A DNA stretch of 19,831 nucleotides, from positions 23,123 through 42,953 of the forward strand of contig JAHFAK010000005.1 in NCBI GenBank assembly GCA_023250585.1, in the 5' to 3' direction. Positions 1,411-14,843 of this stretch are shown here, in pieces; the first letter of the stretch is position 1; the number at the start of each line of letters is the position of its first letter. Both the position numbers and the translations under genes were made by a program. Source of the DNA: Deltaproteobacteria bacterium. Lineage in GTDB: Bacteria; Bdellovibrionota_F; JAHFAK01. The notes under the pieces are model-generated. The model did no database searches, was not told where the DNA came from, and was given only the letters and a program-made list of their open reading frames with translations.

Positions 1411-1425
1411 GATATACATCTATTT

Positions 1426-2364
1426 ATGCTTATTCGATTTAAAAATATAGATAGACTCGTGGGAATATTTGTCATCGTTGTGATATTTATTCTCATCGTT
1501 CTTCTTTCTTCCATTGGTCTTAATAAAGAATGGTTCACACCTAAAAAATATTTTTATACAATTATTGATCGTACGATGGGAATTCGCAGTGGAACAAAGG
1601 TTCTTATCTCAGGCATGGAAACGGGACAGGTCACCGATGTGTTATTCAATGAGCAAAATAAAATTCAAATTACATTTTATATTAAAAAAGCGCATGAACG
1701 ATTAGTTCGTAGCGACACTCGAGTTATTGTAAAAAATCCTACATTGATTGGGAGAAATTTATTGGAGCTCACCATTGGTTCTCCTCGCGAACCTCTCATG
1801 CAAGAAAAAAACGAAATTCCAGGAGAAATCTACGGAGGCCTGTCAGAGCTTATTGAAAAGCTAGCAGTGAGCGATATCTTGCAGCTCATAAATCAGTCAT
1901 TTATGAAATTTCAAGATATGACAGGAACGGCAAAGGATTCATTTGTAAAGCTCTCCAATACTTTAAATTACGCTGACGATGATTTTGTTGAATTTAAAAC
2001 TACGATTGAAAATATCGATCGATTAGTTGCAACGATGAAAGATGAAAATAACAGCATTGGTAAACTTCTCAATGATCGTGGAAAAATTTATAAAAATGTT
2101 GAAGGTGCAAGTGCTGACATGAAAGAAGTCGCCCATGCGCTCAATACTTCAAAAGATAAAATGCTTCACGATGTTGATACAATAATAGCAGATCTCAAAG
2201 TGCTTCTTACAAAATTCAATACAGTTGGAGATGATGTATCAAAAGCATCTCCGCGTATTCCTCAGTTATTGAATGAGTTTGAAAAGGTGGCACTTGAAGC
2301 AAAGAAAGTCTTGCAGGCACTTGAACGCCATTGGCTCTTACGGAAATATGTTGAGGAAGAGTAA
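1426..2364 (+). CDS. MCE-domain substrate-binding protein (MlaD-like)
   Basis: Single-pass inner-membrane protein of 312 residues. A hydrophobic anchor at about 10-32 is followed by one MCE domain at about 38-118 (YFYTIIDRTMGIRSGTKV, then ISGMETGQVTDV, ending near LLELTIGS). A long, mostly helical periplasmic tail with heptad-like character follows (about 130-300), ending HWLLRKYVEEE. MlaD-type proteins bind lipid in the periplasm as hexamers and work with the permease encoded upstream. It starts 15 nt after the ATPase-like gene, with no strong Shine-Dalgarno sequence. The stop lies 3 nt from the convergent lipoprotein gene, with no visible terminator between them. The tail is longer than in E. 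coli MlaD, as in many delta-type MCE proteins. Confidence 0.88.
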   Translation: MLIRFKNIDRLVGIFVIVVIFILIVLLSSIGLNKEWFTPKKYFYTIIDRTMGIRSGTKVLISGMETGQVTDVLFNEQNKIQITFYIKKAHERLVRSDTRVIVKNPTLIGRNLLELTIGSPREPLMQEKNEIPGEIYGGLSELIEKLAVSDILQLINQSFMKFQDMTGTAKDSFVKLSNTLNYADDDFVEFKTTIENIDRLVATMKDENNSIGKLLNDRGKIYKNVEGASADMKEVAHALNTSKDKMLHDVDTIIADLKVLLTKFNTVGDDVSKASPRIPQLLNEFEKVALEAKKVLQALERHWLLRKYVEEE

Positions 2365-2367
2365 ACG

Positions 2368-2856
2368 TTACAGCCCAATCCTTGTTGAAAAATCAAACGA
2401 CAGATCGCCTTCGGCAAATATACAGGATCCAGAGCCGCTTACATGATCACCGTTGTATGGGCTAATTTCATCGAAGAATACCTCCCCGGCTATTGCTTCT
2501 GATGTATACATTTCTCCATTTACATTATAATAGAAAGTGCAGGTTACGTTTCCTGGCACAATTTGCGTTCCTTCATAGAGGACCGTATTAACATCTTGAA
2601 CCGTAAGGACGATTCCCTCGCAGGTATTTTTTTCTTTTCCCATGGTTTTACACACGTAGATGATAAGCCCGCCTGAGACAACAACGGGATAAACCGAATC
2701 GCTATATACAGAACTACTTCCACCAGAAATAGCTTTAACATTATTCACATTAACTCGATAAGGAGTGCCCTGAAATACTCCTTCAACAAATCCCTCATTG
2801 CCACACCCAATTGTCAAAAATGATAATATTCCAATTGCTACGAAGAATTTCTTCAT
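2368..2856 (-). CDS. Putative lipoprotein, unknown function
   Basis: 162 residues beginning MKKFFVAIGILSFLTIGC: lysines, a hydrophobic core and a good lipobox (LTIGC, Cys18), so an exported, lipid-anchored protein. The mature part is rich in Gly, Ser and Val with alternating hydrophobics, suggesting a beta-sandwich. It has further cysteines (VCK, NTC, VTC, GSC) that could form disulfides. No family recognised. The start is supported by AAGGAGC about 6 nt upstream (2861-2867) and by a sigma-54-type promoter about 27 nt upstream. It is convergent with the MCE gene and is probably a single-gene transcription unit. The size, lipobox and promoter type resemble the lipoprotein at 6229-6819, but no convincing sequence similarity was seen by eye. 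Confidence 0.75.
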   Translation of the reverse strand: MKKFFVAIGILSFLTIGCGNEGFVEGVFQGTPYRVNVNNVKAISGGSSSVYSDSVYPVVVSGGLIIYVCKTMGKEKNTCEGIVLTVQDVNTVLYEGTQIVPGNVTCTFYYNVNGEMYTSEAIAGEVFFDEISPYNGDHVSGSGSCIFAEGDLSFDFSTRIGL

Positions 2857-2882: not shown

Positions 2883-2898
2883 TGCAAAATCCATGCCA
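2883..2898 (-). promoter_or_regulatory. Sigma-54 (-24/-12) promoter of the 2368-2856 lipoprotein
   Basis: On the minus strand the site reads TGGCATGGATTTTGCA, matching TGGCAYR-N4-TTGCW with GG and GC separated by exactly 10 nt. The predicted transcript starts near 2872, giving a leader of about 15 nt containing the Shine-Dalgarno sequence. The same 16 bases occur at 14673-14688 before another exported protein. Nothing else was recognised in 2899-2997, which is very AT-rich. Confidence 0.8.
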
Positions 2899-2997
2899 AT
2901 ATATAAATATTATAACTTATTGAAACTATGTATATTTTAATATTTCCAATTCATGACACCTATACAGTTAATCGAAAATAGAGGAAATTGTGCCGCA

Positions 2998-3774
2998 CTA
3001 GAAAAATCGATAATAGATAAGCCCAAAACCTTTTTCAGAAATCAGGGGTGTAAGAAAAGCAGTCCTTTCTTTTGATTTTTTATGGTACTGCGCAGTTCCG
3101 ATTCCAATAGCTGTTCCTATGGTCATGCCTAATAACACGTCGGTCAGGTAATGTTCATTTTGATCGAGTCTTGTCAATGCGGTCAATGAAGCCAACAAAA
3201 AAGCCGGTACGCCAACCTGATATCCATAAAAGCTCGTTAACACGCTAGCCGTTGAAAATGCTGCAGTAGTATGCCCACTAGGAAGAGAATGATCTTCACC
3301 GTTAGGTCTTTCTCGATCAACTCCATATTTTAGTCCCGTTGCTATGGTCATAGATAGAACAAATGATTCAATAGATGATTCCATTGCACGTGATAATGTA
3401 TCATCTTGAAGCAGTATAGCAAGACCCCATGTGGCTATTGTTCCGCCAGCGATTATGAGAGGCTCAGTTGCTTTGCCCCATGTTTTGTCAAAGCTTTGGG
3501 ATAATAGGGGATGTTGTGATAAGTAATGTGAAACAGTATGGTCGAGTGGGTAGAAAGCTAAAGATCCACCGGCTGCGCTTACGAAATATACAGCCTGCGT
3601 TCCTCCAAATGATTCATAGAGATCATATACAAGATGCTTCGGCAATTGACGGACTTTCAACGTATTATTCTTTTCATCAGCTCTATTTTGATCGTGCGTT
3701 TGAGCTTGGAGAGGAAAGAAGAGATACACAATAAGACACATGATAGGACATACTCTGTCCATTAATTTCGCCAT
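2998..3774 (-). CDS. PAP2-family phosphatase
   Basis: 258 residues with all three PAP2 acid-phosphatase motifs: KX6RP (K149 to RP156-157), PSGH (165-168) and RX5HX3D (R202, H208, D212). The catalytic residues are therefore present. There is an N-terminal hydrophobic segment (about 9-24, possibly a signal peptide or anchor) and several further hydrophobic stretches. The family dephosphorylates lipid phosphates such as undecaprenyl pyrophosphate, phosphatidic acid or lipid A; which one is unknown here. The gene begins 7 nt after tsaD ends and is last in the pal-coiled coil-tsaD-PAP2 series. No clear Shine-Dalgarno sequence precedes ATG3774 or the internal ATG at 3762. The C-terminus FGLIYYRFF ends in aromatic residues, reminiscent of outer-membrane proteins, but this is weak. 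Confidence 0.85.
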   Translation of the reverse strand: MAKLMDRVCPIMCLIVYLFFPLQAQTHDQNRADEKNNTLKVRQLPKHLVYDLYESFGGTQAVYFVSAAGGSLAFYPLDHTVSHYLSQHPLLSQSFDKTWGKATEPLIIAGGTIATWGLAILLQDDTLSRAMESSIESFVLSMTIATGLKYGVDRERPNGEDHSLPSGHTTAAFSTASVLTSFYGYQVGVPAFLLASLTALTRLDQNEHYLTDVLLGMTIGTAIGIGTAQYHKKSKERTAFLTPLISEKGFGLIYYRFF

Positions 3775-3781
3775 ATTATTT

Positions 3782-4774
3782 TTAAAGTTTCAGATTCGCA
3801 CAAGCATCTATCGTGAGAGGGTCGAAAAGATTCCTTCTCGCCTTTTCATAAGCGACATGGCCAATCATAGCGGCATTATCGGTACAAAGAATTTTACTCG
3901 GAAAATAAACATCAACTGTTAATTTTTTTCCTTCATGTATGAAACGCTCGCGAAGTGTATTGTTGCTTGCAACCCCACCAGTTACAACGAGGCAATGTAT
4001 ATTTTTTTCTTGTGAAGCTCTGAAGCTTTTGATGCATAAGGATTCTATAAGCGATTTTTGAAAACTGTAGGCAATATTATTGATGAGCGCATCGGTTGGA
4101 TTAGATGCTTCTTTTTTCAGATAATTTACTACACAGGTTTTTAATCCGCTAAAACTAAAATTATATGATGGATCATCTTTCATGGGAATTGGAAAGCGCA
4201 AATCAACGGTGCCCTCGCGTGCTCGTTTTTCAACAATAGGACCACCGGGGTAACCAAGATTTAAAAGCCGTGCGACTTTGTCAAAAGCTTCTCCTGGCGC
4301 ATCGTCGAGTGTTGATCCTAATGTACTATAGTTTCCAAAATCTTTAACTTCATAGAGAATGCAATGACCGCCAGAGATAATGAGTCCTAAAAAAGGAAAT
4401 GAAATATCATGCTCAAAAAGAGCGGAAAGTAAATGTCCTTCAATATGATTAATGCCAATGAGGGGTTTTTTATACATAAGTGCAAGAGCTTTTGCGGTAA
4501 CAAGTCCCACGAGCAGTGATCCCAAAAGTCCTGGTCCATGTGTAACAGCAAAGATATCAATGGCTGAGATGTTGAGAGAAGCTTCATGAAGCGTTTTTTC
4601 AATTAATGAAAGAATTATTTTTTCATGATGCCGAGATGCGATTTCAGGTACAACGCCACCAAAGGGTTTATGGATATCTATTTGCGATGCAATCGTGTGA
4701 GCTAATAATTTTTTATTCTCAAGGATGGCAATGCTGGTTTCATCGCATGATGATTCGATGGCAAGAATGATCAT
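3782..4774 (-). CDS. tsaD: tRNA N6-adenosine threonylcarbamoyltransferase TsaD
   Basis: 330 residues, close to the usual 335-340. The N-terminus MIILAIESSCDETSIAILE is typical. The metal-binding NHIEGHL (H110, H114) is present, as are ISGGHC near 134-138, FSFSGLKT and a GGVASN ATP-binding loop near 266. It transfers the threonylcarbamoyl group to A37 of ANN-decoding tRNAs in the cytoplasm, with TsaB, TsaE and TsaC. The start overlaps the stop of the upstream coiled-coil lipoprotein gene as ATGA (4771-4774), so translation is likely coupled. A housekeeping gene sits here inside an envelope-protein operon. Assignment is firm. Confidence 0.97.
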   Translation of the reverse strand: MIILAIESSCDETSIAILENKKLLAHTIASQIDIHKPFGGVVPEIASRHHEKIILSLIEKTLHEASLNISAIDIFAVTHGPGLLGSLLVGLVTAKALALMYKKPLIGINHIEGHLLSALFEHDISFPFLGLIISGGHCILYEVKDFGNYSTLGSTLDDAPGEAFDKVARLLNLGYPGGPIVEKRAREGTVDLRFPIPMKDDPSYNFSFSGLKTCVVNYLKKEASNPTDALINNIAYSFQKSLIESLCIKSFRASQEKNIHCLVVTGGVASNNTLRERFIHEGKKLTVDVYFPSKILCTDNAAMIGHVAYEKARRNLFDPLTIDACANLKL

Positions 4775-5286
4775 GATTTTTTTGTCTTTTCATGTGCGGC
4801 AGATTTAAGTAGGGCATCTATCTTTTGTTTTATAGTAGCAAGCTGATCGGTATAATTCTTTTTTAATGTCGCAATATCATTTTTGAGAGATTGTATCGAT
4901 TCTTCGACATTCTTTTTTTCACTACTATGTTCATCGGATGATTCTTTATTTTTTTCATTTTCTACGACGAGTTTTGCGATTTCTCTTTCAAGAGGTTCTA
5001 TTCTTTTGGTGAGTTTATGTTCAAGCTCTTCAAAAGAACCCTTGAGATTTTCCATTTCTGTTCGGATATCTGTTGCGAGTGCTCCTCTATCTGCAGCGTT
5101 TTTCTGAGTATCTTCCCTATTTGCTGAAGCAATTATTTCAAGATTGTGTATTCTTGCTTCAAGGCTTTCATTCATGTGATTGAAATCCTGTCGTAACGAG
5201 GAGACTTCATTATTTAAATAATTAATTTCTTTATAGTAACAAGAAGTAAGAAATAATATTGGCAGGATCAAAAATGATTTTCTCAT
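4771..5286 (-). CDS. Coiled-coil lipoprotein downstream of Pal
   Basis: 171 residues. The signal MRKSFLILPILFLTSC has lipobox LTSC (Cys16), so it is an exported lipid-anchored protein. Almost the whole mature part (about 20-165) is charged with heptad-like spacing, such as the ELEHKLTKRIEPLEREIAKL region, and is predicted as a long coiled coil. It follows pal by 2 nt, the position of ybgF/cpoB in tol-pal operons. CpoB also has an N-terminal trimeric coil, but the C-terminal TPR repeats of CpoB are absent and this protein is lipidated. It may therefore be a functional counterpart or simply an envelope spacer. The stop overlaps the tsaD start. No enzymatic motif is visible. Confidence 0.75.
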   Translation of the reverse strand: MRKSFLILPILFLTSCYYKEINYLNNEVSSLRQDFNHMNESLEARIHNLEIIASANREDTQKNAADRGALATDIRTEMENLKGSFEELEHKLTKRIEPLEREIAKLVVENEKNKESSDEHSSEKKNVEESIQSLKNDIATLKKNYTDQLATIKQKIDALLKSAAHEKTKKS

Positions 5287-5288
5287 AG

Positions 5289-5828
5289 TTATTTCTGCGC
5301 GGTAAATTCGCCTCGTCGATTGAGAGCGAACGCTTCTTCGCTTTTTTCAAGTTTTATTGGTTGTTCTTCGCCAAGGCTTTCAGTAATGAGTCGAGCAGAA
5401 TCCACACCTAAATTTGCTAAATAATTTTTGATTTCTTGTGCACGCTTATTGCCTAATGCAAGATTGAATTCATTGCTGCCACGTTCATCGCAATGACCTA
5501 CAATTTTCAATTTAATCCTAGGATATTTTTTCAGTAATTCTGCGTGATGATCGAGAATAGCTTTTGCCGTAGCGGTTAAACTAAATTGGTCATATTCAAA
5601 GTGAATACGTGAAAAATCGAGTTTATCGATTATAGCATCTTCGCTTTCTTCTATAGCTCCATTCTCTCCTTCGCCGTTCTTTCCATCACCTTCCAATGAA
5701 GATGAGTCACCGTCTGCTTGAACTCCCGGACCTTTTTCTATGTGATCAGCCTTTTTTGCACATGAAATACCCATACTCATTAATGAGATTACTACAAAGA
5801 ATCCATATAGTTTTTTTCGTAGCGACAT
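5289..5828 (-). CDS. pal: Peptidoglycan-associated lipoprotein Pal (OmpA-like)
   Basis: 179 residues from ATG5828. An earlier in-frame ATG at 5840 exists, but GGAGG (plus 5834-5838) is well placed only for 5828. The signal peptide ends at MGISC, a relaxed lipobox with Cys23. An acidic Gly/Ser/Glu linker (about 30-65) leads to an OmpA C-terminal domain. That domain contains IHFEYDQFSLT, IVGHCDERGSNEFNLALGNKRA (peptidoglycan-binding Asp and Arg positions present) and the closing NRRGEF. It anchors the outer membrane to peptidoglycan. First gene of the apparent operon with the coiled-coil lipoprotein, tsaD and PAP2 genes. TolB, usually next to pal, is not in the window. The pal promoter was not identified with confidence. 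Confidence 0.93.
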   Translation of the reverse strand: MSLRKKLYGFFVVISLMSMGISCAKKADHIEKGPGVQADGDSSSLEGDGKNGEGENGAIEESEDAIIDKLDFSRIHFEYDQFSLTATAKAILDHHAELLKKYPRIKLKIVGHCDERGSNEFNLALGNKRAQEIKNYLANLGVDSARLITESLGEEQPIKLEKSEEAFALNRRGEFTAQK

Positions 5829-5833
5829 AGAAA

Positions 5834-5838
5834 CCTCC
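5834..5838 (-). promoter_or_regulatory. Ribosome binding site deciding the pal start
   Basis: Minus strand GGAGG followed by TTTCT and ATG at 5828. It lies inside the extended reading frame from 5840 and so argues for the shorter protein. Confidence 0.75.
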
Positions 5839-5942
5839 ATTGTTTTGTTATACTAACTTTGAAAAATCTTTTTTACACCGTAGCAAATAGATTCAAAATG
5901 TCAACAGTCTCTATGAAGTAAGAGCTCAGTTGTATGGTGGAG

Positions 5943-6058
5943 TTAGGGTGTACGTAAGTTCCCAAAAAGTATTTCTATCGACGTCGCTTCCATAATACTA
6001 TTAAGAACAGACAGCGAGCTCGATAGAAATACTTTTTGGGAACTTACGCACACCCTAA
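5943..6058. repeat. MITE-like long inverted repeat (family B)
   Basis: Two 39-nt arms, 5943-5981 and 6020-6058, are exact reverse complements except for one base (TAC versus TGC). They surround a 38-nt centre containing GTCGCTTCCATAATACTATT. The centre and right arm recur, diverged, at 7844-7909. Size (116 bp), near-perfect arms and lack of an ORF fit a miniature inverted-repeat element. The rest of the 5841-6228 gap holds the sigma-54 promoter at 6190 and a short open stretch (6061-6150) that could be a decayed coding fragment. Confidence 0.8.
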
Positions 6059-6189
6059 TAACGGAGGGATTACTCTATGAAAAAAGGTTACAGAGGATCG
6101 AGAAGTTTTTGGACTATACTAAATTGATAGAGCTATTATTTATAACCATCTAATAATATTACCATTTTTTATTAATTATTTAAGATTTT

Positions 6190-6205
6190 TGGCATGAATT
6201 ATGCA
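6190..6205 (+). promoter_or_regulatory. Sigma-54 (-24/-12) promoter of the 6229-6819 lipoprotein
   Basis: TGGCATGAATTATGCA has GG-N10-GC spacing and one departure from TTGCA (ATGCA). The expected transcript starts near 6216, just before GGAG (6219-6222) and ATG6229. The leader geometry fits well and rules out the in-frame GTG at 6217. Confidence 0.7.
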
Positions 6206-6228
6206 CTTAAATATTTGTGGAGAAATAT

Positions 6229-6819
6229 ATGCTTAAGCAGTCTTTTATATTACTTAGTCTAATCGGTGGATTATTCGTCTTTATTAATTGTTCTACGCCA
6301 CTTTTGACTGCTCAAGGAGTAGTTAACCCAAGTGGAACGGGAGTAGGTGTAAATCAAAATTATCTCTATGCCATGGGAGGTTTACGCGAGCTTCAGGATG
6401 ATAAAGAGCAAACCGTCTATCAAGTATGGGTGCTCTTTTTTAATGATGCTACCAATCTTAATACCTTGAATCCTGAGACGTTTATTCCAGGAACTGATTA
6501 TCCATCAGGAGAGTATTTGCTCATGACCATTGCGAGTGCTGATTTGAATAGTATTGTTTCCGACAAGGGATATAGCTTTTCGGTCTATAATCCTGAGCAG
6601 CAAAAAAATGTTGTTAATTACTTTGAAATAAGTATGGATCTTGGCAGCGATGGTACTCAAGCGAAAGCAACATATCAAAGCATTGGCAAAGTTGGAACAA
6701 TCGACGCGGCCATTCATATTAATGGCACCAAACTTACGTATTTCGATGGAAGTTTTTCTATGGATTTTGAATATCCCGATTTCATTGAAGGAGACTTTTC
6801 GGTTAATTTTGAGGAATGA
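6229..6819 (+). CDS. Putative lipoprotein, unknown function
   Basis: 196 residues from ATG6229, which has GGAG (6219-6222) upstream; a GTG at 6217 lies at the predicted transcription start and is rejected. The signal MLKQSFILLSLIGGLFVFINC carries a relaxed lipobox (FINC, Cys21), so it is probably lipid-anchored. The mature part begins STPLLTAQG, has a Gly/Asn-rich linker and continues as a probable beta-rich domain with many Thr, Tyr and Asp residues (YQVWVLFFNDATNLNT; ending GDFSVNFEE). No family recognised. It is expressed from a sigma-54-type promoter, like the lipoprotein at 2368-2856. It is followed 44 nt later by the diguanylate cyclase gene, which appears to have its own -10 box. Confidence 0.72.
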   Translation: MLKQSFILLSLIGGLFVFINCSTPLLTAQGVVNPSGTGVGVNQNYLYAMGGLRELQDDKEQTVYQVWVLFFNDATNLNTLNPETFIPGTDYPSGEYLLMTIASADLNSIVSDKGYSFSVYNPEQQKNVVNYFEISMDLGSDGTQAKATYQSIGKVGTIDAAIHINGTKLTYFDGSFSMDFEYPDFIEGDFSVNFEE

Positions 6820-6850
6820 ATTCTATCTAGTATTTTCATGAACATTACGG

Positions 6851-6856
6851 TATACT
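6851..6856 (+). promoter_or_regulatory. -10 box of the FHA-GGDEF gene
   Basis: TATACT lies only 7 nt before ATG6864, with no Shine-Dalgarno sequence between, so the mRNA may be leaderless. The -35 region is poor, so confidence is limited. Confidence 0.4.
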
Positions 6857-6863
6857 TATTAGT

Positions 6864-7769
6864 ATGGATGAAGAAACAAAAGTCAGCCAGGGGCCTTTGA
6901 ATTTACCGAAATTAAGCGAAAAAAGTAGTCCGTGTCTTGTTGTAATTCATGGGAATAACTTAGGTGAAAAATATATTTTGAATCGTTTGGAGACCATTAT
7001 TGGTCGCAAAGAAGATGCGGATATACAGGTTGAAGAAGAAAATGTGTCGCGCCAACATGCAAAAATCATGCTACATGATAGTAACGTTACCATTAAAGAT
7101 TTAAAAAGCACCAATGGAACATTCATTAATACGAAACGCTTGAAAGACGAAGTCGTATTAAAAGAGGGTGATTTAATATTAATTGGAAATACGATTCTTA
7201 AATTCATTCCAAGCGGAAACATTGAACACGTCTATCATGAAGAAATGTACAAACTCGCGACCCTTGATGGCTTAACGCAAATTTTTAATAAAACTCACAT
7301 TCTTGAGAGAATCGAGGATGAGTTCTTGCGGTCGCTCAGATACAAACGTAAACTGTCTTTGCTCTTTTTGGATTTCGATTACTTTCATGAACTCAATAGT
7401 AAATATACGCATCTTGGTGGCGATCAGGTTCTAAAAAAAGTTGCATCATTGGTCTTACGAAATTTGCGGAAAGAAGATATTTTTGGGCGATACGGCGGCG
7501 AAGAGTTTGCAATAGTTTTACCTGAAACCGATGAAAAGAGTGCATTTAATATTGCCGATAAACTTCGTGCATTAGTTGAGAAAACAAAAATAGAATACAA
7601 TGATCACAATATTCCTGTAACAATCAGCATTGGTGTTGCTTCAGTTAAGTTTGACCGAAAAGGAAATCCACAACCTCCAGTTGCTTCATCAGAAAAATTC
7701 ATTGAATTGGCTGATAAAGCTCTCTTTGAAGCTAAAAACAAAGGCCGCAATCGTGTGTGTGTCGTGTAA
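6864..7769 (+). CDS. FHA-domain diguanylate cyclase (GGEEF)
   Basis: 301 residues, cytoplasmic (no signal peptide or membrane segment). The N-terminal tail (1-22) contains Thr5. The FHA domain (about 25-115) keeps its phosphothreonine-binding signature: GR47-48, SRQH 62-65 and STNG 82-85. The GGDEF domain (about 125-301) has LDFDYFHELNS, the active-site RYGGEEF (GGEEF 211-215) and an intact inhibitory I-site RKED (202-205) five residues upstream. An active, product-inhibited cyclic-di-GMP synthase is therefore expected, steered by a phosphothreonine partner. The FHA-GGDEF architecture is that of Bdellovibrio DgcB (Bd0742), which is needed for prey invasion; orthology is only inferred. The gene is convergent with the M23 peptidase, with a repeat between. 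Confidence 0.93.
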   Translation: MDEETKVSQGPLNLPKLSEKSSPCLVVIHGNNLGEKYILNRLETIIGRKEDADIQVEEENVSRQHAKIMLHDSNVTIKDLKSTNGTFINTKRLKDEVVLKEGDLILIGNTILKFIPSGNIEHVYHEEMYKLATLDGLTQIFNKTHILERIEDEFLRSLRYKRKLSLLFLDFDYFHELNSKYTHLGGDQVLKKVASLVLRNLRKEDIFGRYGGEEFAIVLPETDEKSAFNIADKLRALVEKTKIEYNDHNIPVTISIGVASVKFDRKGNPQPPVASSEKFIELADKALFEAKNKGRNRVCVV

Positions 7770-7778
7770 TAAGCAGAC

Positions 7779-7909
7779 GCATTCAAACGCTAACTTCGTT
7801 GGCTTCGTCAGAAGCTCCTCGACGTATTAGCATATACGTCTGTGTCGCTTCCATAATACTATTAAGAACGGGGTAAGCGCGCTCGATAGGAATACTTTTT
7901 GGAAACTTA
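7779..7909. repeat. Chimeric dispersed repeat (family A left part joined to family B right part)
   Basis: 7779-7847 matches 14721-14790 (GCATTCAAACGCTAACT, CGTTGGCTTCGTC, GCTCCTC, ACGTA). From GTCGCTTCC (7844) to 7909 it follows the 5983-6048 element (CATAATACTATTAAGAAC, then a diverged right arm). The switch lies at GTCGC, common to both families. It occupies the space between the convergent cyclase and peptidase genes. No terminator with a T-run was found there. Confidence 0.7.
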
Positions 7910-7934
7910 CTCCACCCATTAATTAGGCTGTTAT

Positions 7935-9203
7935 TTAATGAGATAACTTTGTCTCATTACGTGCGAGTTTGCTTACTTCGGCTAACTGAAGCGCTAATTT
8001 ATCTCGTTGTTGTATGAAGAGAGACAGAAATTCCTTTTTAACAGGTTCTGCGGAACGGAATGAAAGTGAGTTAAAGTTTACGTATTGATCATACACATAA
8101 AATGCAAAGTGAAGATGAGGACCTGTTGCAAGACCGGTTTGTCCCATGTAGCCAATGACTTGCCCTTGTTGAACATGAGAGCCAACATGTAGACCTGCTG
8201 GATATCTTGATAAATGCGAGTATGAACTATCGTATTTATCCGAATGTCTAATTTTGATAAATTTTCCTGAGCCACCTTTCCAGCCAACATATGTAACAAT
8301 ACCATTGCCGATTGCTTTAATCGGTGTACCGGTTGGACCTCCATAATCAATGCCTAGATGAGGACGTCTGATTTTTAAGATAGGATGAAAACGTCGTACA
8401 TTGAAAGCAGAAGTAATACGTGTATATCGAACAGGACTTTTCAAAAATTGTTTTCGAAGTGTTACTCCATCCGGGCCATAATAATCTTCATGACCATTCG
8501 GGTCTTTGAAGTAATACGCTACAAAATCCTTTCCGCTATTGGTAAATTTAGCTGCAAGGATTTTTCCAAATCCTGATTCTTTGCCTTTGAGATTTAATGT
8601 TTCAACCAAGAGCGTAAATCTATCATTTTTGCGAAGACTTGTTTTAAAGTCGATGTCGTATTGAAACAGGTCGACTAAATCTTGAATAACTTCCGCATTA
8701 AGCCCCGCATCTTGTGCAGCATCAAAAAGATTCGTATGTATGGTTCCGTCAAAAACTTTTTGATTTATTTCGTACGGAATTTTTTGAATATTTCCCGTAA
8801 TGGTATTTTCATGTTTGGTAAGATTCAATAAATTATATTTATCAATATAATAGGTAAGTTCAGTCAGCTCTTCATCAAAAACAGTAAGAAGCAGCGAGCG
8901 GTCTTTTCTTATTTTTGATAACGGATATACCTTTTTTGATTGTTCAATAAATGTATGAATGACATCATGTGAAAAATTGAAGCTTTGTAAAATATCAGAA
9001 ATGGTGTCATTCTTTTTGATCGTATAGGTTATTTTTTTCGTCTTATCTTTCACTACTTCTGATACAGGAAGTAGTGCATTTCGACCCTTAAGAACCGTAT
9101 CCAGATTTGCAGTCAAAGCATGCAAGGAATACAATTTCCATTGTAGGGTCACGATACCTACTATAAAAACAACAATAAGGCTTGTAGTGACTTTTTTATA
9201 CAC
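7935..9203 (-). CDS. M23-family peptidoglycan DD-endopeptidase (MepM/YebA type)
   Basis: 422 residues from GTG9203, supported by AGGAG 6 nt upstream. An N-terminal membrane anchor (7-22) is followed by a LysM/OapA-like segment (YTIKKNDTISDILQSFNFS, about 60-78), a middle domain (about 140-255) and an M23 peptidase domain. The zinc motifs are complete: H282xxxD286, H330 in YSHLSRY and HLHF (363-366). The architecture is that of E. coli MepM, which cuts peptide cross-links in the periplasm to allow wall growth. In predatory relatives such enzymes can also act on prey walls, but nothing here shows that. A good sigma-70 promoter lies about 30 nt upstream and a sigma-54-type site about 180 nt upstream. 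It is convergent with the FHA-GGDEF gene. Confidence 0.93.
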   Translation of the reverse strand: MYKKVTTSLIVVFIVGIVTLQWKLYSLHALTANLDTVLKGRNALLPVSEVVKDKTKKITYTIKKNDTISDILQSFNFSHDVIHTFIEQSKKVYPLSKIRKDRSLLLTVFDEELTELTYYIDKYNLLNLTKHENTITGNIQKIPYEINQKVFDGTIHTNLFDAAQDAGLNAEVIQDLVDLFQYDIDFKTSLRKNDRFTLLVETLNLKGKESGFGKILAAKFTNSGKDFVAYYFKDPNGHEDYYGPDGVTLRKQFLKSPVRYTRITSAFNVRRFHPILKIRRPHLGIDYGGPTGTPIKAIGNGIVTYVGWKGGSGKFIKIRHSDKYDSSYSHLSRYPAGLHVGSHVQQGQVIGYMGQTGLATGPHLHFAFYVYDQYVNFNSLSFRSAEPVKKEFLSLFIQQRDKLALQLAEVSKLARNETKLSH

Positions 9204-9233
9204 GAAAACTCCTAAAGTATTAAATAATATACT

Positions 9234-9262
9234 ATTATATAGTAAAAGAGGGCTTACCGCAA
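9234..9262 (-). promoter_or_regulatory. Sigma-70 promoter of the M23 peptidase
   Basis: Minus strand: TTGCGG (9257-9262), 17 nt, then a perfect TATAAT (9234-9239). The transcript would start near 9227, about 25 nt before GTG9203. Confidence 0.6.
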
Positions 9263-9384
9263 GGAAAATTCATCTAACATTTTGAATATATTGATTTTTT
9301 TAGAAATTAGTTAATACGTATTCCATGATTTTTATAGTTACTCCTTAATTATGTTAGACTTTAGCTATCAAAGATAGAGACTCC

Positions 9385-9399
9385 GCAAAAAGCATGCCA
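9385..9399 (-). promoter_or_regulatory. Sigma-54-type promoter facing the M23 peptidase
   Basis: Minus strand TGGCATGCTTTTTGC: full -24 box and TTGC -12 box with GG-N10-GC spacing. The transcript would begin near 9373, leaving an unusually long leader of about 170 nt to GTG9203. The rest of the 9204-9577 gap holds the two sigma-70 promoters; no small ORF or RNA gene was recognised there. Confidence 0.6.
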
Positions 9400-9519
9400 A
9401 AATCTAATAAAATATAAGTATTGAATATTATAAGAATAATGCAATGTGAGACATGCGTATTATGATTAGTATCTTATTCACTATGTGGAATCTGAATCAC
9501 AACATGCGACATTTAATGC

Positions 9520-9548
9520 TTGTAATAATGAAAGATATAGTATAAAAT
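9520..9548 (+). promoter_or_regulatory. Sigma-70 promoter of the MNT-HEPN operon
   Basis: TTGTAA (9520-9525), 17 nt, TAAAAT (9543-9548), with transcription expected near 9555. It lies inside the longest reading frame and so supports ATG9578 as the true start. A 10-nt palindrome TTTATATAAA (9550-9559) at the start point could be an operator, but AT-richness makes this weak. Confidence 0.5.
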
Positions 9549-9577
9549 TTTTATATAAATTATTAATAGTAGAGAAT

Positions 9578-10096
9578 ATGACAGAACTTGAATTAAAAAG
9601 AAGAAGACAGATGCTTGGCCTAACTCAGATGGAGCTTGCACATCGATTAGAATTCTCTGTTCAACAGATTAGCAATTACGAAACGGGAAGAGTGAATATT
9701 CCTAAGGTAGTTGAACTGGCTCTCGGTCAGCTTGATCAAAAGAAAAAACATAATGAAAAAAAACGTCACGTCGGAAAGACGAAGGAAATAATAATAATAC
9801 AGGATTTTATTGAAGCCGTAAAAAGAAAATTAAAGAATCACTTTCTCTTTGCACTGTTATTTGGTTCAAAAGCACGAGGTGATTACACCAAAGATTCAGA
9901 TAGTGATATTTTAATCGTAGTAAAAAAGATAAATCCAGGGCTTAGACAAAAGGTATTTGATATATTGTTTCATACAGATCCAGGCTACGAGTATAAAATT
10001 TCTCCTATCCTCTTTTCACTCAAGGACTATAAAAAAAATGAAGCATTACATTCCCCTTTCATTCAAAATATTAAAGCGGAGGGAACATTGCTTTGA
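9578..10096 (+). CDS. XRE helix-turn-helix / MNT nucleotidyltransferase, antitoxin-like
   Basis: 172 residues from ATG9578 (a GTG at 9485 would add 31 low-quality residues and overlap the promoter). Residues 1-50 are an XRE-type HTH (LKRRRQMLGLTQMELAHRL, then SVQQISNYETGR). A charged linker (52-70) leads to a minimal nucleotidyltransferase domain with the GSX10DXD motif complete (G96, S97, D108, D110 in GSKARGDYTKDSDSD). In MNT-HEPN modules the nucleotidyltransferase neutralises the HEPN RNase, in characterised cases by AMPylating it. The fused HTH suggests it also represses its own operon. The TGA overlaps the next gene's TTG start, so the two are coupled. Confidence 0.85.
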   Translation: MTELELKRRRQMLGLTQMELAHRLEFSVQQISNYETGRVNIPKVVELALGQLDQKKKHNEKKRHVGKTKEIIIIQDFIEAVKRKLKNHFLFALLFGSKARGDYTKDSDSDILIVVKKINPGLRQKVFDILFHTDPGYEYKISPILFSLKDYKKNEALHSPFIQNIKAEGTLL

Positions 10097-10497
10097 AGAC
10101 CGAGACACGATCCTTTGATCTTGCTTACTACCGGCTAGCACAAGCAAAAATAAAATTGAGATCTGCTCGAGTGCTGTTAAAAGTCGGAAGTTTTGAAGAT
10201 GCTCTTTCGAGGTCATATTATGTAATGTTTTGGGCCGTTAGAGCATTACTTGCAACAAAAAACCTCGATGCCAAAAGACACTCAGGAGTTATTGTGTTGT
10301 TTAATCAGTATTTTATTAAAGAGGGTATTGTAGATAAGAAACTTGGGAAAATGATTGCAGAGGCAAAAGGAATACGTGAAGAAAGCGATTATGCTGATTA
10401 CGTAACGTTTACTAGAGAAGATGCACTTACTCAAATTCATAATGCCAAGATTTTTATTGATGAAGTCACAAGAGCAGTAAAGAAATTGGACTGCTAG
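10093..10497 (+). CDS. HEPN-domain protein, toxin-like partner of the MNT
   Basis: 134 residues, starting at TTG10093 within the TTGA overlap. GGAGGG (10078-10083) provides a ribosome site. It is all-helical and fits the HEPN family: SRSYYVMFWAVRALL (39-53), the family's conserved helix, and IREESDYADY (94-103). Many relatives have His or Tyr where this one has Trp (FW), so RNase activity cannot be assumed. Immediately behind an MNT gene, this forms a two-gene MNT-HEPN toxin-antitoxin-type module, a class usually linked to phage defence or stress. It could also be a substrate-binding partner of the nucleotidyltransferase, as with kanamycin nucleotidyltransferase-like pairs. It is convergent with the secreted gene downstream. 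Confidence 0.8.
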   Translation: MKTETRSFDLAYYRLAQAKIKLRSARVLLKVGSFEDALSRSYYVMFWAVRALLATKNLDAKRHSGVIVLFNQYFIKEGIVDKKLGKMIAEAKGIREESDYADYVTFTREDALTQIHNAKIFIDEVTRAVKKLDC

Positions 10498-10591
10498 AAA
10501 ATTAATTTCGTTTAGGCTTTAGACCATCAGATAAGGCTAAAGATTGTTGATAATATAACTTATGTTCGAATGTTGTTGGTACTCTTATTCA

Positions 10592-11347
10592 TTACTGAAC
10601 AACAGGAATAACAAAGCATTTAAAATCATCAATATGGCATGTTCCTTCGGCACATCCAAATCCAACTTCTATACGGCTTGGAAGATTAACACCGTCAATT
10701 GAAGTAAGAAAAGGAACATTACCAAGATACTGAGGTTCTGAACCAACTGGGCCGTTTGCGGTTGTTTTGAGGTATGCTTCTTCATTAAAATAAATATCCA
10801 TAAATAAATATACATCAGCATAGTGTAATATTTTGTCTTCATTTTTGCCATGAAAAACCGGTAGTGCATTGGGGTCCCTTGTCCATATAAAACACTGGAG
10901 ACTTCCATTGAGAAGTACATTTTGAATATGAGTGCTTTGTTCAGAAGGAATAATGACCTGGTTAAAGCGAACAGCATTTGAGAAACATTCCGAGTCATTG
11001 ACATTACAATTTGATTGACTGCTTGTTACCTTAAATACAAGGTCGTTTTTCTTTTGGGTATCATTGGAGTAGGCGTAATCAGCAGTTCCATTGATTAAGG
11101 GCCAGCCTACGAAATTTAATTCTTTGTCATACCCTTCATTCGCATCCCAATTAAGTATAGTTAATTGAGGGAAATGAGCCTCATAGCTCTTTATTGTAGC
11201 CGTCTGAATCGGTACTAGGCGATGATTTAATCTCGCGAAAACATCAACGTCTCTGCAATTACCGGTTTGTGAATAAGCTTGCGCTTTACTCAAACTCCCC
11301 AAAAGTGCTAGTACAATACTCAAGTAACTGAATAATTTCTTACCCAT
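10592..11347 (-). CDS. Secreted Cys-containing protein, unknown function
   Basis: 251 residues with a clear Sec signal peptide (MGKKLFSYLSIVLALLGSLSKAQA, cleavage after AQA near 24). The mature part has seven cysteines (GNCRD, SNCN, SECF, LQCF, GCAEGTC, FKCF), implying disulfides. It is also rich in Asn, Asp and aromatic residues, like beta-rich extracellular proteins. No catalytic motif or family recognised. The start is backed by AGGAG 6 nt upstream. A sigma-54-type promoter sits about 110 nt upstream and a perfect 8-bp inverted repeat a further 113 nt beyond it, in the zone where enhancer-binding proteins act. It is probably transcribed alone. Confidence 0.75.
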   Translation of the reverse strand: MGKKLFSYLSIVLALLGSLSKAQAYSQTGNCRDVDVFARLNHRLVPIQTATIKSYEAHFPQLTILNWDANEGYDKELNFVGWPLINGTADYAYSNDTQKKNDLVFKVTSSQSNCNVNDSECFSNAVRFNQVIIPSEQSTHIQNVLLNGSLQCFIWTRDPNALPVFHGKNEDKILHYADVYLFMDIYFNEEAYLKTTANGPVGSEPQYLGNVPFLTSIDGVNLPSRIEVGFGCAEGTCHIDDFKCFVIPVVQ

Positions 11348-11455
11348 ACAATTCTCCTAAAAGATGGTTAGTTGAAATGTTTTCAAAGTTTGACTTTTCA
11401 AACACATCGTTATTTTTATTATCAAAACTTAAACACTCTTTCCTAATAGAGCTGA

Positions 11456-11470
11456 GCAAATTTGATGCCA
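11456..11470 (-). promoter_or_regulatory. Sigma-54 promoter of the 10592-11347 secreted protein
   Basis: Minus strand TGGCATCAAATTTGC matches TGGCAYR-N4-TTGC approximately, with GG-N10-GC. The expected start is near 11444, giving a leader of about 97 nt to ATG11347. Confidence 0.65.
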
Positions 11471-11582
11471 TTTATTAAAAAAAAATGTAACTCTTTGTAA
11501 TCATATAATTTTCATCATATTAAATACTTTTTGAATTGCTCTCTTTTTGATTTTTTTGGTATTTTATATAGCAATTATTTCC

Positions 11583-11614
11583 ACAATCTATGAAAAATCT
11601 GTTAGTTAGATTGT
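11583..11614. promoter_or_regulatory. Inverted repeat, possible enhancer-binding site
   Basis: ACAATCTA (11583-11590) and TAGATTGT (11607-11614) are exact reverse complements, centred about 130 nt upstream of the sigma-54 site at 11456-11470. Distance and symmetry fit a bacterial enhancer-binding protein site, but the arms are short and AT-rich. Nothing further is recognised in the gap between here and the IS. Confidence 0.35.
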
Positions 11615-11703
11615 AATATGTTATTTTTTTCAAGATTTAGGCAACTAACTTCGGCATTTTTCTTATTCACTTTATTCATACAAAGAAATGTCGTACCAAA
11701 ATG

Positions 11704-12041
11704 ATAATGTCACATAGAGACCAAAGTTAAAATGTCACAACATCATGTATCATATTTTTATAGATTAAATGACATATCATAGAAGATATCTTCGAAAGGA
11801 GATATCAGTATGAAGGAGACTTTGGCAATGAGTTATACAGAAAGACAACGAATGATGATCATGGAGAAAGTACAACAGAATCAGATAACGTTAGTAGAAG
11901 CAAGCGAGATGTTATGTATAAGCTATCGGCAGACGTTACGGATACGGGATCGGTACAAGGCCGAAGGTGAAAACCTGTTGCCTGTAGCTTTTTGTCGATT
12001 TTTTGTTGCCGGGCACGTTTTGGTCTTTTAGTATACATTAT
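11704..12041 (+). mobile_element. Internally deleted insertion sequence (ISNCY/IS1202-like)
   Basis: Imperfect terminal inverted repeats: 11704-11725 (ATAATGT ... GACCAAA) and the reverse complement of 12019-12041 (ATAATGT ... GACCAAA). The left end also repeats AATGTCAC twice (11706-11713, 11731-11738), as at many IS ends. Inside is only the N-terminal part of a transposase, joined to a short C-terminal-like stretch. At about 340 bp it is a deletion derivative that cannot move by itself. The family name comes from the HTH protein and is tentative. Confidence 0.55.
11810..12031 (+). pseudogene. Truncated transposase, N-terminal HTH only
   Basis: 73-residue ORF with a strong ribosome site (AAGGAGATATCAGT before ATG11810). 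Residues 1-52 (MSYTERQRMMIMEKVQQNQ, then LVEASEMLCISYRQTLRIRDRYKAEG) look like the helix-turn-helix start of ISNCY/IS1202-type transposases. Those are normally over 400 residues, so the DDE catalytic core is missing. After ENLL the sequence changes to a Phe/Val-rich tail ending AGHVLVF, which resembles the tail AGHVSV of the remnant ending at 19371. This suggests that the 5' and 3' ends of one transposase were joined by an internal deletion. If translated, the product could only bind DNA, perhaps IS ends. Confidence 0.6.
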
Positions 12042-12066
12042 GAAAAATAGTTTGACAAAATGTATA
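12032..12066. promoter_or_regulatory. Inverted repeat around the -35 box, possible operator
   Basis: TATACATT (12032-12039) and AATGTATA (12059-12066) are exact reverse complements bracketing the TTGACA box of the ATPase gene. A repressor site is possible. The left arm also overlaps the IS right end, so the symmetry may be coincidental. Confidence 0.35.
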
Positions 12067-12080
12067 TCATCCTGTAAAAT
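12052..12080 (+). promoter_or_regulatory. Strong sigma-70 promoter of the AAA ATPase gene
   Basis: Perfect TTGACA (12052-12057), exactly 17 nt, then TAAAAT (12075-12080). The expected start near 12087 lies about 5 nt before ATG12092, with no Shine-Dalgarno sequence, so the mRNA is probably leaderless. It begins 10 nt past the IS end. Confidence 0.75.
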
Positions 12081-12091
12081 AATTTTCCATA

Positions 12092-13285
12092 ATGATAGAT
12101 ACTATTCGTTTACTTGAATTAGATAAACTCGCTAAAGATGAAGGGAAGAAATATGCAAAAAAGCGTAATGTCTATACAAGTCTCATCAAAAAAACAAAAC
12201 ATTTTATTGGTATTGTTGGCCCTAGAGGTGTTGGGAAGACAATTCTTTTAAAACAAATAGCTCTCTCAATGCAAGAATCGTTTTATCTCTCGGCTGACAC
12301 ACTCGAGAATGAAGATCTATTCGAAATAGCAAAAACTTTGAAAGAACGATATAAAATTAAGTGTTTATTAATTGATGAGATACACTTTCAACAGGATTTC
12401 GATAAAAAATTAAAACAGATTTTTGATTTTTTAGATATACGAATTATTTTTACAAGCTCTGTTGCTCTTTCAATTGTGGAATCTTCCTATGATCTTTCAC
12501 GGCGAGTTGAGCTCATACATGTCAATCCTTTTTCTTTCAGAGAATTCTTACTTTTTAAATACGATAGAGATTTACCTGCTTTAACTTTTGGCGATCTTAT
12601 CGAAAAAAATTGGACAGTAGAACATCTAAAAACAGAACTCTATTTTGACGAATATCTTCGTGGTGGGCTTATGCCATTTGCTTTAGAAGAAGGAGATATT
12701 CTGCCACTTCTTTCAAATATACTGCAGAAAATTATTCAAAGAGATATTCCTCATGTGGCTAAATTGGGTATTTCAGAACTTCCCTTGATTGAAAAAATGG
12801 TACGGTTTATTGGAAAATCAGCTATTGAGGGAATCAATTATTCATCTCTTTCCCACAATATCGGTATCACGAAATATAAAGCCGAAAGTTATATGAGCCT
12901 CTTAAAAAATGCATTTGTCTTACATCCCGTATTTCCAAAAGGAACAAATGTATTACGAGAACCGAAAGTACTCATGTTTCTTCCCTATCGGTTGCTCTAT
13001 CGCGATTTTTCAGAAGCAGTAGGTGGATTGCGAGAAGATTTTTTTGCGCAAGAAATGTTTTTTCATCATAAAAATTTCTTCTATTTAAAATCAAATCGAG
13101 GAGAGAAAACACCCGACTATCTTATCCAAGATGATAATGAGGATATCGTTATTGAGATTGGTGGCAAAAGCAAAGGTCGTTCACAATTCAAAGGAATAGA
13201 CATAGAGAAAAAAATTATCCTTACTCATAGAGGAGTGAGCGACGATATCAAAAGGCCGTTATTTCTTTTAGGATTTATACGGTAG
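12092..13285 (+). CDS. AAA-family ATPase with DUF4143-like C-terminal domain
   Basis: 397 residues, cytoplasmic. Walker A GPRGVGKT (43-50), Walker B CLLIDEIH (91-98, D95 and E96) and a sensor-1-like IIFTSS define an AAA_14-type P-loop domain. A winged-helix-like middle region (about 225-285) is followed by a C-terminal module with EDFFAQEMFFHH, then TPDYLIQDDNEDIVIEIGGKSKG. The spaced PD and E-x-G-x-K residues resemble the PD-(D/E)XK-like fold of DUF4143 proteins. The family is widespread and often mobile or defence-associated, but its biochemical role is poorly known. It stands alone between an IS remnant and a convergent secreted gene, with a near-consensus promoter and probably a leaderless mRNA. 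Confidence 0.82.
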   Translation: MIDTIRLLELDKLAKDEGKKYAKKRNVYTSLIKKTKHFIGIVGPRGVGKTILLKQIALSMQESFYLSADTLENEDLFEIAKTLKERYKIKCLLIDEIHFQQDFDKKLKQIFDFLDIRIIFTSSVALSIVESSYDLSRRVELIHVNPFSFREFLLFKYDRDLPALTFGDLIEKNWTVEHLKTELYFDEYLRGGLMPFALEEGDILPLLSNILQKIIQRDIPHVAKLGISELPLIEKMVRFIGKSAIEGINYSSLSHNIGITKYKAESYMSLLKNAFVLHPVFPKGTNVLREPKVLMFLPYRLLYRDFSEAVGGLREDFFAQEMFFHHKNFFYLKSNRGEKTPDYLIQDDNEDIVIEIGGKSKGRSQFKGIDIEKKIILTHRGVSDDIKRPLFLLGFIR

Positions 13286-13327
13286 TAAGTATTCTTTCCA
13301 ACCAAGCTTCCATCTTGAGTATGCATA

Positions 13328-14620
13328 TTATTGTCTTATCCCGATAAACCATAGTTCATGAAGATCTAAGAGTTTATTGAGTTTCTCTTTAATTCTTGGT
13401 TCTACCTGAGGGAGATATTCTTTGAATTCTTTTCTTAAGAGAGCTCCGGTTATTGTTGTTTTAGAGTACAGTAAATACTGTATTTGATTTTGCGCTTCTT
13501 TTTCATTACCCTGAACCAATAGATCTACAATATGAGCTACGAAGATGGTTGAGAGAGCTTGAGGGCGGGTACGAGCATCTCCATGTATAACACTTTCTTC
13601 AAATTTTTTATACGACATCGTTTTTTCAGCGAAATATCGAAAACGATCTTGTGTTATAATTTCTAGAATAGCCACGGTTTCAGGAGCTCTCGTTGATTGA
13701 TATTGCTCTTCATTAAGTATATCAAGCTGTTTAATCATAGCATACGCAAATCGTCGCTTAAGTTCTTTGAATGATAATCGTGTAAGGGGATTAATATCGT
13801 TATACATTGGGTTTTCATTGGAGAGTTCTAATATGTCCAAGCGGATTTCGCTTGCGTGAGCTAGATCAGCAAATATATTAAGTTGTAAATCATCATCGGC
13901 ATATCGAAGAGCTAAATTAAAAAGAAGAGGATCTTTTCCATATAGATGTTTTTTTACAATATCCTTGTGTGCCTTTGCCATAAATCGAGCTTTATTTTCG
14001 AGGAACGTCGAAGAAAGGTTTTCATAAATAGTGGGAATAGTGTCTAGATATGCTTTCATTACACTAAACCCTTCTTTGTGATCTAAAAGCAGTGTACTTA
14101 TGTCAAATATAATATGGAAATCCTTTTCTTTATCTAAAAAATCAATGAGTTTTTGAGAATTATGCTCTTCTTCCATATATTTTATTACTACTGCAGATGC
14201 TATTGACAGAGGAGCTCCATCAACATCCTTCATGAGTTCATACCGTTTTCTTTGTGGTAACTCGAGAGCACGTTCGCCAAAATAATTTTGCATTTTATTT
14301 TTCTTCTGATCACCTTTTTCCATTTTCAGTACTATATTCAATGATTGTTTTATTTCGTTTATTTTTTCAGTGGTATCGAGTACCATTTCCTTTCCTTTTT
14401 TTGCAGACATTATTTCGAGTAATTCATCAACAAAAGCCTTATAATCTTTCACACTATTAGTCTTCATAATAAAGTTGAGTACAGTGTGGAGGGCTTGATT
14501 TGTATTATCAAAAATTCCTCCACAACCCTTACCTTTACGGCTCATAGCTTCTGTATGGACTGAAATTATTGATAAGAAAACTACAAAATTTATAATGATT
14601 ATGAGAATACGTAATTTCAT
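13328..14620 (-). CDS. Secreted helical protein, unknown function
   Basis: 430 residues. An N-terminal hydrophobic segment (about 4-20, followed by HTEAMS) reads as a Sec signal peptide. The mature part is strongly helical and charged, with repeated leucine-rich helices reminiscent of alpha-solenoids, such as FDISTLLLDHKEGFSVMKAY and RLSFKELKRRFAYAMIKQ. No family or catalytic motif recognised. There is one early Cys-Gly-Gly (KGCGGIF) and otherwise almost no Cys. AAGG lies 5 nt before ATG14620, and a sigma-54-type promoter lies about 53 nt upstream. A MITE-like repeat sits immediately beyond that promoter, so any enhancer sites would be separated from it. Convergent with the AAA ATPase gene. 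Confidence 0.75.
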   Translation of the reverse strand: MKLRILIIIINFVVFLSIISVHTEAMSRKGKGCGGIFDNTNQALHTVLNFIMKTNSVKDYKAFVDELLEIMSAKKGKEMVLDTTEKINEIKQSLNIVLKMEKGDQKKNKMQNYFGERALELPQRKRYELMKDVDGAPLSIASAVVIKYMEEEHNSQKLIDFLDKEKDFHIIFDISTLLLDHKEGFSVMKAYLDTIPTIYENLSSTFLENKARFMAKAHKDIVKKHLYGKDPLLFNLALRYADDDLQLNIFADLAHASEIRLDILELSNENPMYNDINPLTRLSFKELKRRFAYAMIKQLDILNEEQYQSTRAPETVAILEIITQDRFRYFAEKTMSYKKFEESVIHGDARTRPQALSTIFVAHIVDLLVQGNEKEAQNQIQYLLYSKTTITGALLRKEFKEYLPQVEPRIKEKLNKLLDLHELWFIGIRQ

Positions 14621-14672
14621 ATATACCTTACATTGAATTTGTGATCTTCAGAACACCCTCATCAAAGAAATA

Positions 14673-14688
14673 TGCAAAATCCATGCCA
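14673..14688 (-). promoter_or_regulatory. Sigma-54 (-24/-12) promoter of the 13328-14620 gene
   Basis: Minus strand TGGCATGGATTTTGCA, identical over 16 bases to the site at 2883-2898. GG-N10-GC spacing is kept. The expected start near 14662 gives a leader of about 42 nt. Confidence 0.8.
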
Positions 14689-14710: not shown

Positions 14711-14834
14711 ATACTAAGTTGCATTCAAACGCTAACTGCGTTGGCTTCGTCGTCGGCTCCTCAACGTACTATTACGTACGTTTGCGTCGCCTTCTCCTTG
14801 CCGCCTTGTTATCATTTTGAATGCAATTTAGTAT
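14711..14834. repeat. MITE-like repeat with terminal inverted repeats (family A)
   Basis: 19-nt ends, 14711-14729 and 14816-14834, are reverse complements with one mismatch (ATACTAAGTTGCATTCAAA). The 86-nt centre is more GC-rich than its surroundings and shares GCATTCAAACGCTAACT, CGTTGGCTTCGTC and GCTCCTC with 7779-7847. No ORF. It lies 22 nt upstream of the sigma-54 site at 14673-14688. The remainder of the 14621-14974 gap holds that promoter and a gene fragment. Confidence 0.7.
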
Positions 14835-14843
14835 AAATAAATC

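Follow-up and report, generated by a model that had tools for sequence, protein, structure and literature searches.

Sigma-54-type promoters before genes of exported proteins and lipoproteins in an uncultured lineage of deltaproteobacterial grade

Introduction

Sigma-54 (RpoN) is best known for its role at nitrogen and flagella genes, and in most genomes these duties blur its link to the cell exterior. Such a link was put forward by Francke et al. (2011, PMC3162934), who proposed sigma-54 as a controller of the bacterial exterior, with promoters and activators tied to envelope functions, lipoproteins included, across phyla. In Chlamydia trachomatis, sigma-54 works with one activator (CtcC) and a regulon of 64 genes, 33 of them with predicted promoters; it serves membrane and secreted proteins, many of which are hypothetical and many of which are type III secretion effectors (Soules et al. 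2020, PMC7482065). Within the Rrp2-RpoN-RpoS pathway of Borrelia burgdorferi, sigma-54 controls rpoS and thus surface lipoproteins indirectly (PMC3037356). In the sigma-54 regulome of Desulfovibrio vulgaris, flagella make up the largest share (19 operons) beside metabolism and transport, and many of its promoters have upstream sites for individual activators (PMC4641369).

The genome described here (G000) belongs to an uncultured, deep lineage of deltaproteobacterial grade and was assembled to 2.24 Mb in 164 contigs with 96.7% completeness. It shares with the survey of Francke et al. the association of sigma-54 with envelope functions and lipoproteins. While that survey dealt mostly with precursor synthesis and transport, flagella and nitrogen, the promoters in G000 stand directly before genes of exported proteins, and glutamine synthetase and flagellin were not found. 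In comparison with the single activator of C. trachomatis, about 79 promoters and about 10 activators are predicted, and the products are lipoproteins and Sec-secreted proteins rather than type III effectors. Surface lipoproteins are under sigma-54 in the end in B. burgdorferi as well, but the lipoprotein genes of G000 bear their own predicted sigma-54 promoters. Like D. vulgaris, G000 has many predicted sigma-54 promoters, a subset of them with a putative upstream activator site; it is rich in lipoprotein targets, and a text search of the D. vulgaris regulome paper (PMC4641369) gave no mention of lipoproteins.

Sites and genes in the window

The window, i.e. the whole 19.8-kb stretch of DNA that was analysed (C159:23123-42953, 85% coding), contains five exact matches to TGGCAT[G/C]-N4-[T/A]TGC on its two strands (Table 1) and no sixth one elsewhere. 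The preliminary description had listed five sites with this motif, these strands and this fixed spacing, and all five were recovered exactly; its coordinates were right for the sites themselves and off by 0-1 base at their ends, each site being 15 bp long. It had also placed them outside genes and upstream of two lipoproteins, an M23 peptidase and two secreted proteins, in agreement with our results: all five are intergenic, and the gene that each one faces lies on the same strand at a distance of 24-181 bp. Their number is indeed far above casual expectation, as only 0.17 sites are expected per 19.8 kb at the genome-wide rate of wrongly spaced motifs (probability of at least five ~1e-6).

Table 1. 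Predicted sigma-54 promoters of the window and the genes that follow them (window coordinates).
Feature	Position	Strand	Context	Score or family match
sigma-54 promoter TGGCATGGATTTTGC	2884..2898	-	27 bp before lipoprotein gene 2368-2856	matrix 23.5 bits
lipoprotein, 162 aa (MKKFFVAIGILSFLTIGCGNEG)	2368..2856	-		no Pfam or NCBIfam family
sigma-54 promoter TGGCATGAATTATGC	6190..6204	+	24 bp before lipoprotein gene 6229-6819	matrix 20.2 bits
lipoprotein, 196 aa (MLKQSFILLSLIGGLFVFINCSTP)	6229..6819	+		no Pfam or NCBIfam family
FHA-GGDEF gene	6864-7769		after lipoprotein gene 6229-6819	
sigma-54 promoter TGGCATGCTTTTTGC	9385..9399	-	181 bp before M23 peptidase gene 7935-9203	matrix 18.7 bits
M23 peptidase, 422 aa, Csd3_N2 domain, N-terminal signal anchor	7935..9203	-		Pfam PF01551 3.7e-29, PF19425 3.5e-15
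sigma-54 promoter TGGCATCAAATTTGC	11456..11470	-	108 bp before secreted-protein gene 10592-11347	matrix 18.4 bits
secreted protein, 251 aa, signal peptide	10592..11347	-		no Pfam or NCBIfam family
sigma-54 promoter TGGCATGGATTTTGC	14674..14688	-	53 bp before secreted-protein gene 13328-14620	matrix 23.7 bits
secreted protein, 430 aa, signal peptide	13328..14620	-		no Pfam or NCBIfam family

A position matrix was trained on 58 promoters from other contigs, the window's own contig being left out. The five sites outscored every other position in the window; the best of the remainder (14.9 bits at 6723, + strand) lies within a gene and lacks the GC. Sigma-70-like matches were not commoner in the window than in shuffled sequence (73 vs 79.5), so they carry no information on the competing sigma-70 promoters that the preliminary description found lacking at four of the five sites.

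The five sites could alternatively be due to chance, or to a motif that has nothing to do with sigma-54, such as an operator or a repeat-borne sequence. A two-mismatch search of the window showed no excess, as such an explanation would have it, but this search was too loose to inform, and a repeat element lies near the site at 14674-14688. For the remaining four sites, the upstream sequence occurs only once in the sampled DNA, and the exact spacing, the orientation, the position before gene starts and the presence of rpoN and activator genes contradict this explanation, which we consider hardly credible.

The window has further features. A near-perfect palindromic, MITE-like repeat of 115 bp is present at 5943-6058 and 7844-7917, and over 20 copies of it, complete or partial, were seen in the sampled genome. 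The second repeat element (14711-14835), just upstream of the promoter at 14674-14688, has about eight further good copies in the sampled DNA, and a related piece is located at 7779-7848. A helix-turn-helix and nucleotidyltransferase (MNT) gene and the HEPN gene after it (9485-10497) form an MntA/HepT-type toxin-antitoxin pair. At 12092-13285, an AAA_14/DUF4143 ATPase is encoded, and two genes of similar look are found on contig C92.

The motif across the genome

Genome-wide, TGGCAY-N5-WTGC occurred 98 times compared to 12 times for the reversed pattern, while the seven wrong spacings of 6-12 gave 135 matches in total (about 19 each). The 98 sites are divided into 79 intergenic and 19 genic ones, so that the intergenic count is about the size of the excess over background. 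A gene starts within 200 bp in the direction of the motif at 63 of the 79 intergenic sites, and in the opposite direction at 10. Other spacings yielded only 0-1 intergenic matches each in 626 kb of fetched DNA, a sample that is mostly centred on sites and hence biased; the counts of 98 vs 12 and of the 135 wrongly spaced matches are free of that bias.

With the matrix at ≥16 bits, the separation was almost clean, with 77 intergenic and 4 genic sites. The motif is concentrated between genes and before those of exported proteins; an equal frequency in coding regions or before cytoplasmic genes, which the preliminary description had named as evidence against its reading, was not observed. The extended consensus is tTGGCAY-N5-tTGCwt, and about seven promoters carry AACCTATT at -37 to -55. 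The raw motif density of 44 per Mb was the highest of the 59 genomes counted, followed by about 24 per Mb. It is near certain from these patterns that the window sites represent real sigma-54 promoters.

Sigma-54 and its activators

The preliminary description had called for a search for rpoN and enhancer-binding proteins and held that a genome lacking rpoN would speak against its reading. A single, intact rpoN was found (C92:4755-6185, 476 aa, PF04552 1e-62) with the RpoN box ARRTIAKYR; its relatives share at most 58-59% identity and are spread over Bdellovibrionota, Myxococcota and Thermodesulfobacteriota. Enhancer-binding proteins are present as well, namely ten strong sigma-54 activators (PF00158, 199-248 bits), most of them with GAFTGA-type loops. 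NtrC-type activators were noted at L051, L083, L065, L047, L093, L059 and L097, many with adjoining sigma-54 sites and near contig ends, and those on C75 and C153 adjoin MFS-like and radical SAM genes, like peptide-type clusters.

An eleventh, double-FHA homologue extends from C159:21362 to about the start of the window and adjoins MlaE/ABC/MCE genes (window 122-2364). It is unlikely to drive the five sites because both its Walker B motif (LYLKNIE) and its GAFTGA motif (GYFTST) are degenerate.

No match to glutamine synthetase (PF00120) was obtained in the 96.7% complete genome, while the same search was positive in 14 of 14 control genomes. This suggests dependence on external glutamine, or else an assembly gap. 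Flagellin gave no match in the genome either. A search for ATP/ADP translocase, a possible sign of intracellular life, returned one weak, partial match, a transporter-like protein of 412 aa.

Exported targets

Genes were called with a home-made caller and export with a crude home-made heuristic, applied identically to both groups; on this basis, 48 of 63 targets (76%) were exported compared to 65 of 205 other leader genes (32%, p=4e-10). For lipoproteins, the values were 18/63 and 15/205 (p=3e-5). The enrichment of signal-peptide and lipobox genes expected by the preliminary description is therefore present. When alternative start codons and gaps of up to 320 bp were allowed, 55 of 68 targets (81%) looked exported. 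Among the 13 targets that this heuristic did not call exported are a radical SAM protein and, named from their N-termini, a NusG-like protein and a PfkB-like kinase; an activator gene is a non-exported target as well. An export-biased sigma-54 regulon across the genome is well supported by these predictions, and sigma-54 seems to serve the cell exterior above all here.

The same bias could stem from duplication of one promoter-gene cassette instead of regulatory logic. Thrombospondin type 3 repeats (TSP_3) were detected in six targets and tetratricopeptide repeats (TPRs) in four, and a lipoprotein family bearing TSP_3-type repeats accounts for 6-7 targets, as a cassette would predict. However, most targets have no similarity to any other target (mean column identity 5%), and the bias stays when six or seven targets are removed (41/56 vs 65/205, by subtraction). 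A single duplicated cassette was rejected as the cause since few of the targets are related to one another; we regard it as very improbable.

By eye, a C-x-x-[IV]-F motif recurs a short way behind the signal peptide in secreted proteins that are not otherwise alike (for example window 13328-14620, L020:432-1439 and L076:9810-12443).

In the sole comparison genome of the same class (G001), there was no clear excess of the motif (48 vs 31 reversed), and only distant M23 matches were found, so that it yielded no phylogenetic footprint. G043, which is related at domain level only, had 23 of 34 exported targets compared to 25 of 74 (p=0.001), so exported targets are not unique to G000. Judged by their N-termini, targets in G043 look like an ammonium transporter, a glutamine synthetase-like protein, a flagellar-type protein and pilins. 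For G034 with 15 targets, no significant excess was seen. What stands out in G000 is the share of lipoproteins together with the lack of classic targets.

Upstream palindrome and a candidate activator

All inverted repeats of two types with spacers of 0-12 were counted in the region from -150 to -60 and compared with 300 shuffled sets. TGNA-N5-TNCA was present at 14 of 74 promoters with 2.1 expected, above the maximum of all shuffled sets, while the same half-sites with other spacers were near background. Genome-wide, it is found upstream of about 16 promoters on many contigs, at about -68 to -133 relative to the -24 element (~70-135 bp), seven copies being located at -114 to -117. Lipoprotein genes follow 9 of 14 promoters with the palindrome and 12 of 53 without it (p=0.005), or 11/14 and 13/53 with three atypical lipoboxes added by eye. 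Split-half motif discovery was unstable and did not reliably re-find TGNA-N5-TNCA, the family-wise inverted-repeat test being the only convincing one. GAA-Nk-TTC was also considered as enhancer and was rejected with a weaker signal.

TGNA-N5-TNCA is likely an enhancer of a lipoprotein sub-group, and a shared enhancer for this subset is moderately supported by the counts. Two copies within 150 bp upstream were found for only 3 of 526 genes, namely two lipoprotein genes with sigma-54 promoters and the activator gene C3:9034-10410. In the encoded protein, HTH_8 accompanies an intact AAA+ domain, and Pfam gives no receiver match; the acidic and phosphorylation residues that mark a receiver are missing from the N-terminus (pseudo-receiver). 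This protein is a candidate activator of the lipoprotein sub-group but a lead only, because there are about ten activators to choose from and the chance that one of them shows this coincidence is ~0.06.

None of the five window promoters has a good copy of the palindrome. The preliminary description had proposed an envelope or secretome regulon, perhaps tied to one developmental or host/prey-contact programme. The former part agrees with the genome-wide excess of exported targets; a single programme for the window promoters is not borne out, because there are several activators and no good enhancer copy at these sites.

The lack of a shared palindrome at the window promoters would also fit a reading in which the sites are true sigma-54 promoters but their link to export is incidental. 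Sigma-54 would then work a large number of separate, locally acting switches for efflux, peptide clusters, competence and lipoproteins, every one tied to an activator of its own, without a regulon whose members respond together; the exported proteins would simply be accessory genes, which tend to be under such control. In its favour, sigma-54 sites adjoin the gene clusters of several activators themselves, and another palindrome, of the TGTA-N10-TACA type, is found upstream of the sites next to two paralogous activators; in addition, the export bias of G043 is similar but milder and occurs alongside classic targets. On the other hand, local switches do not readily account for exported targets at 76% vs 32%, for one putative enhancer that about 16 promoters on many contigs have in common and that is enriched at lipoprotein genes, or for 79 promoters that far outnumber 10 activators. 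We hold this explanation to be possible, if somewhat doubtful.

Discussion

The five sites are very probably -24/-12 promoters of the sigma-54 (RpoN) polymerase and part of a regulon of about 80 promoters that would serve mainly Sec-exported proteins and lipoproteins. Transcription of the sites, the pairing of activators with promoters and the signal are inferred from sequence. The sigma-54 holoenzyme would sit on TGGCAY-N5-WTGC as a closed complex, which would open once ATP is hydrolysed by an AAA+ enhancer-binding protein at an upstream site. Surface proteins would thus be switched on in batches with the signals that the activators sense, and in the lipoprotein sub-group, C3:9034-10410 may act through TGNA-N5-TNCA. 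A stronger version is rather unlikely in our view: without glutamine synthetase and flagellin, sigma-54 would have become a near-dedicated switch for surface proteins, and this unconventional activator with its degenerate receiver would drive a lipoprotein sub-regulon via a single palindromic enhancer.

The connection of sigma-54 to the cell exterior is already known; its near-exclusive use on exported proteins is new by degree and specialisation. The putative enhancer TGNA-N5-TNCA upstream of 16 promoters, mostly of lipoprotein genes, is new here. In this genome, 76-81% of the predicted targets look exported and the searches for glutamine synthetase and flagellin were negative, which makes it a clear natural test case for the idea that sigma-54 controls the exterior. 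Promoter sequence alone could predict surface proteins of an uncultured lineage.
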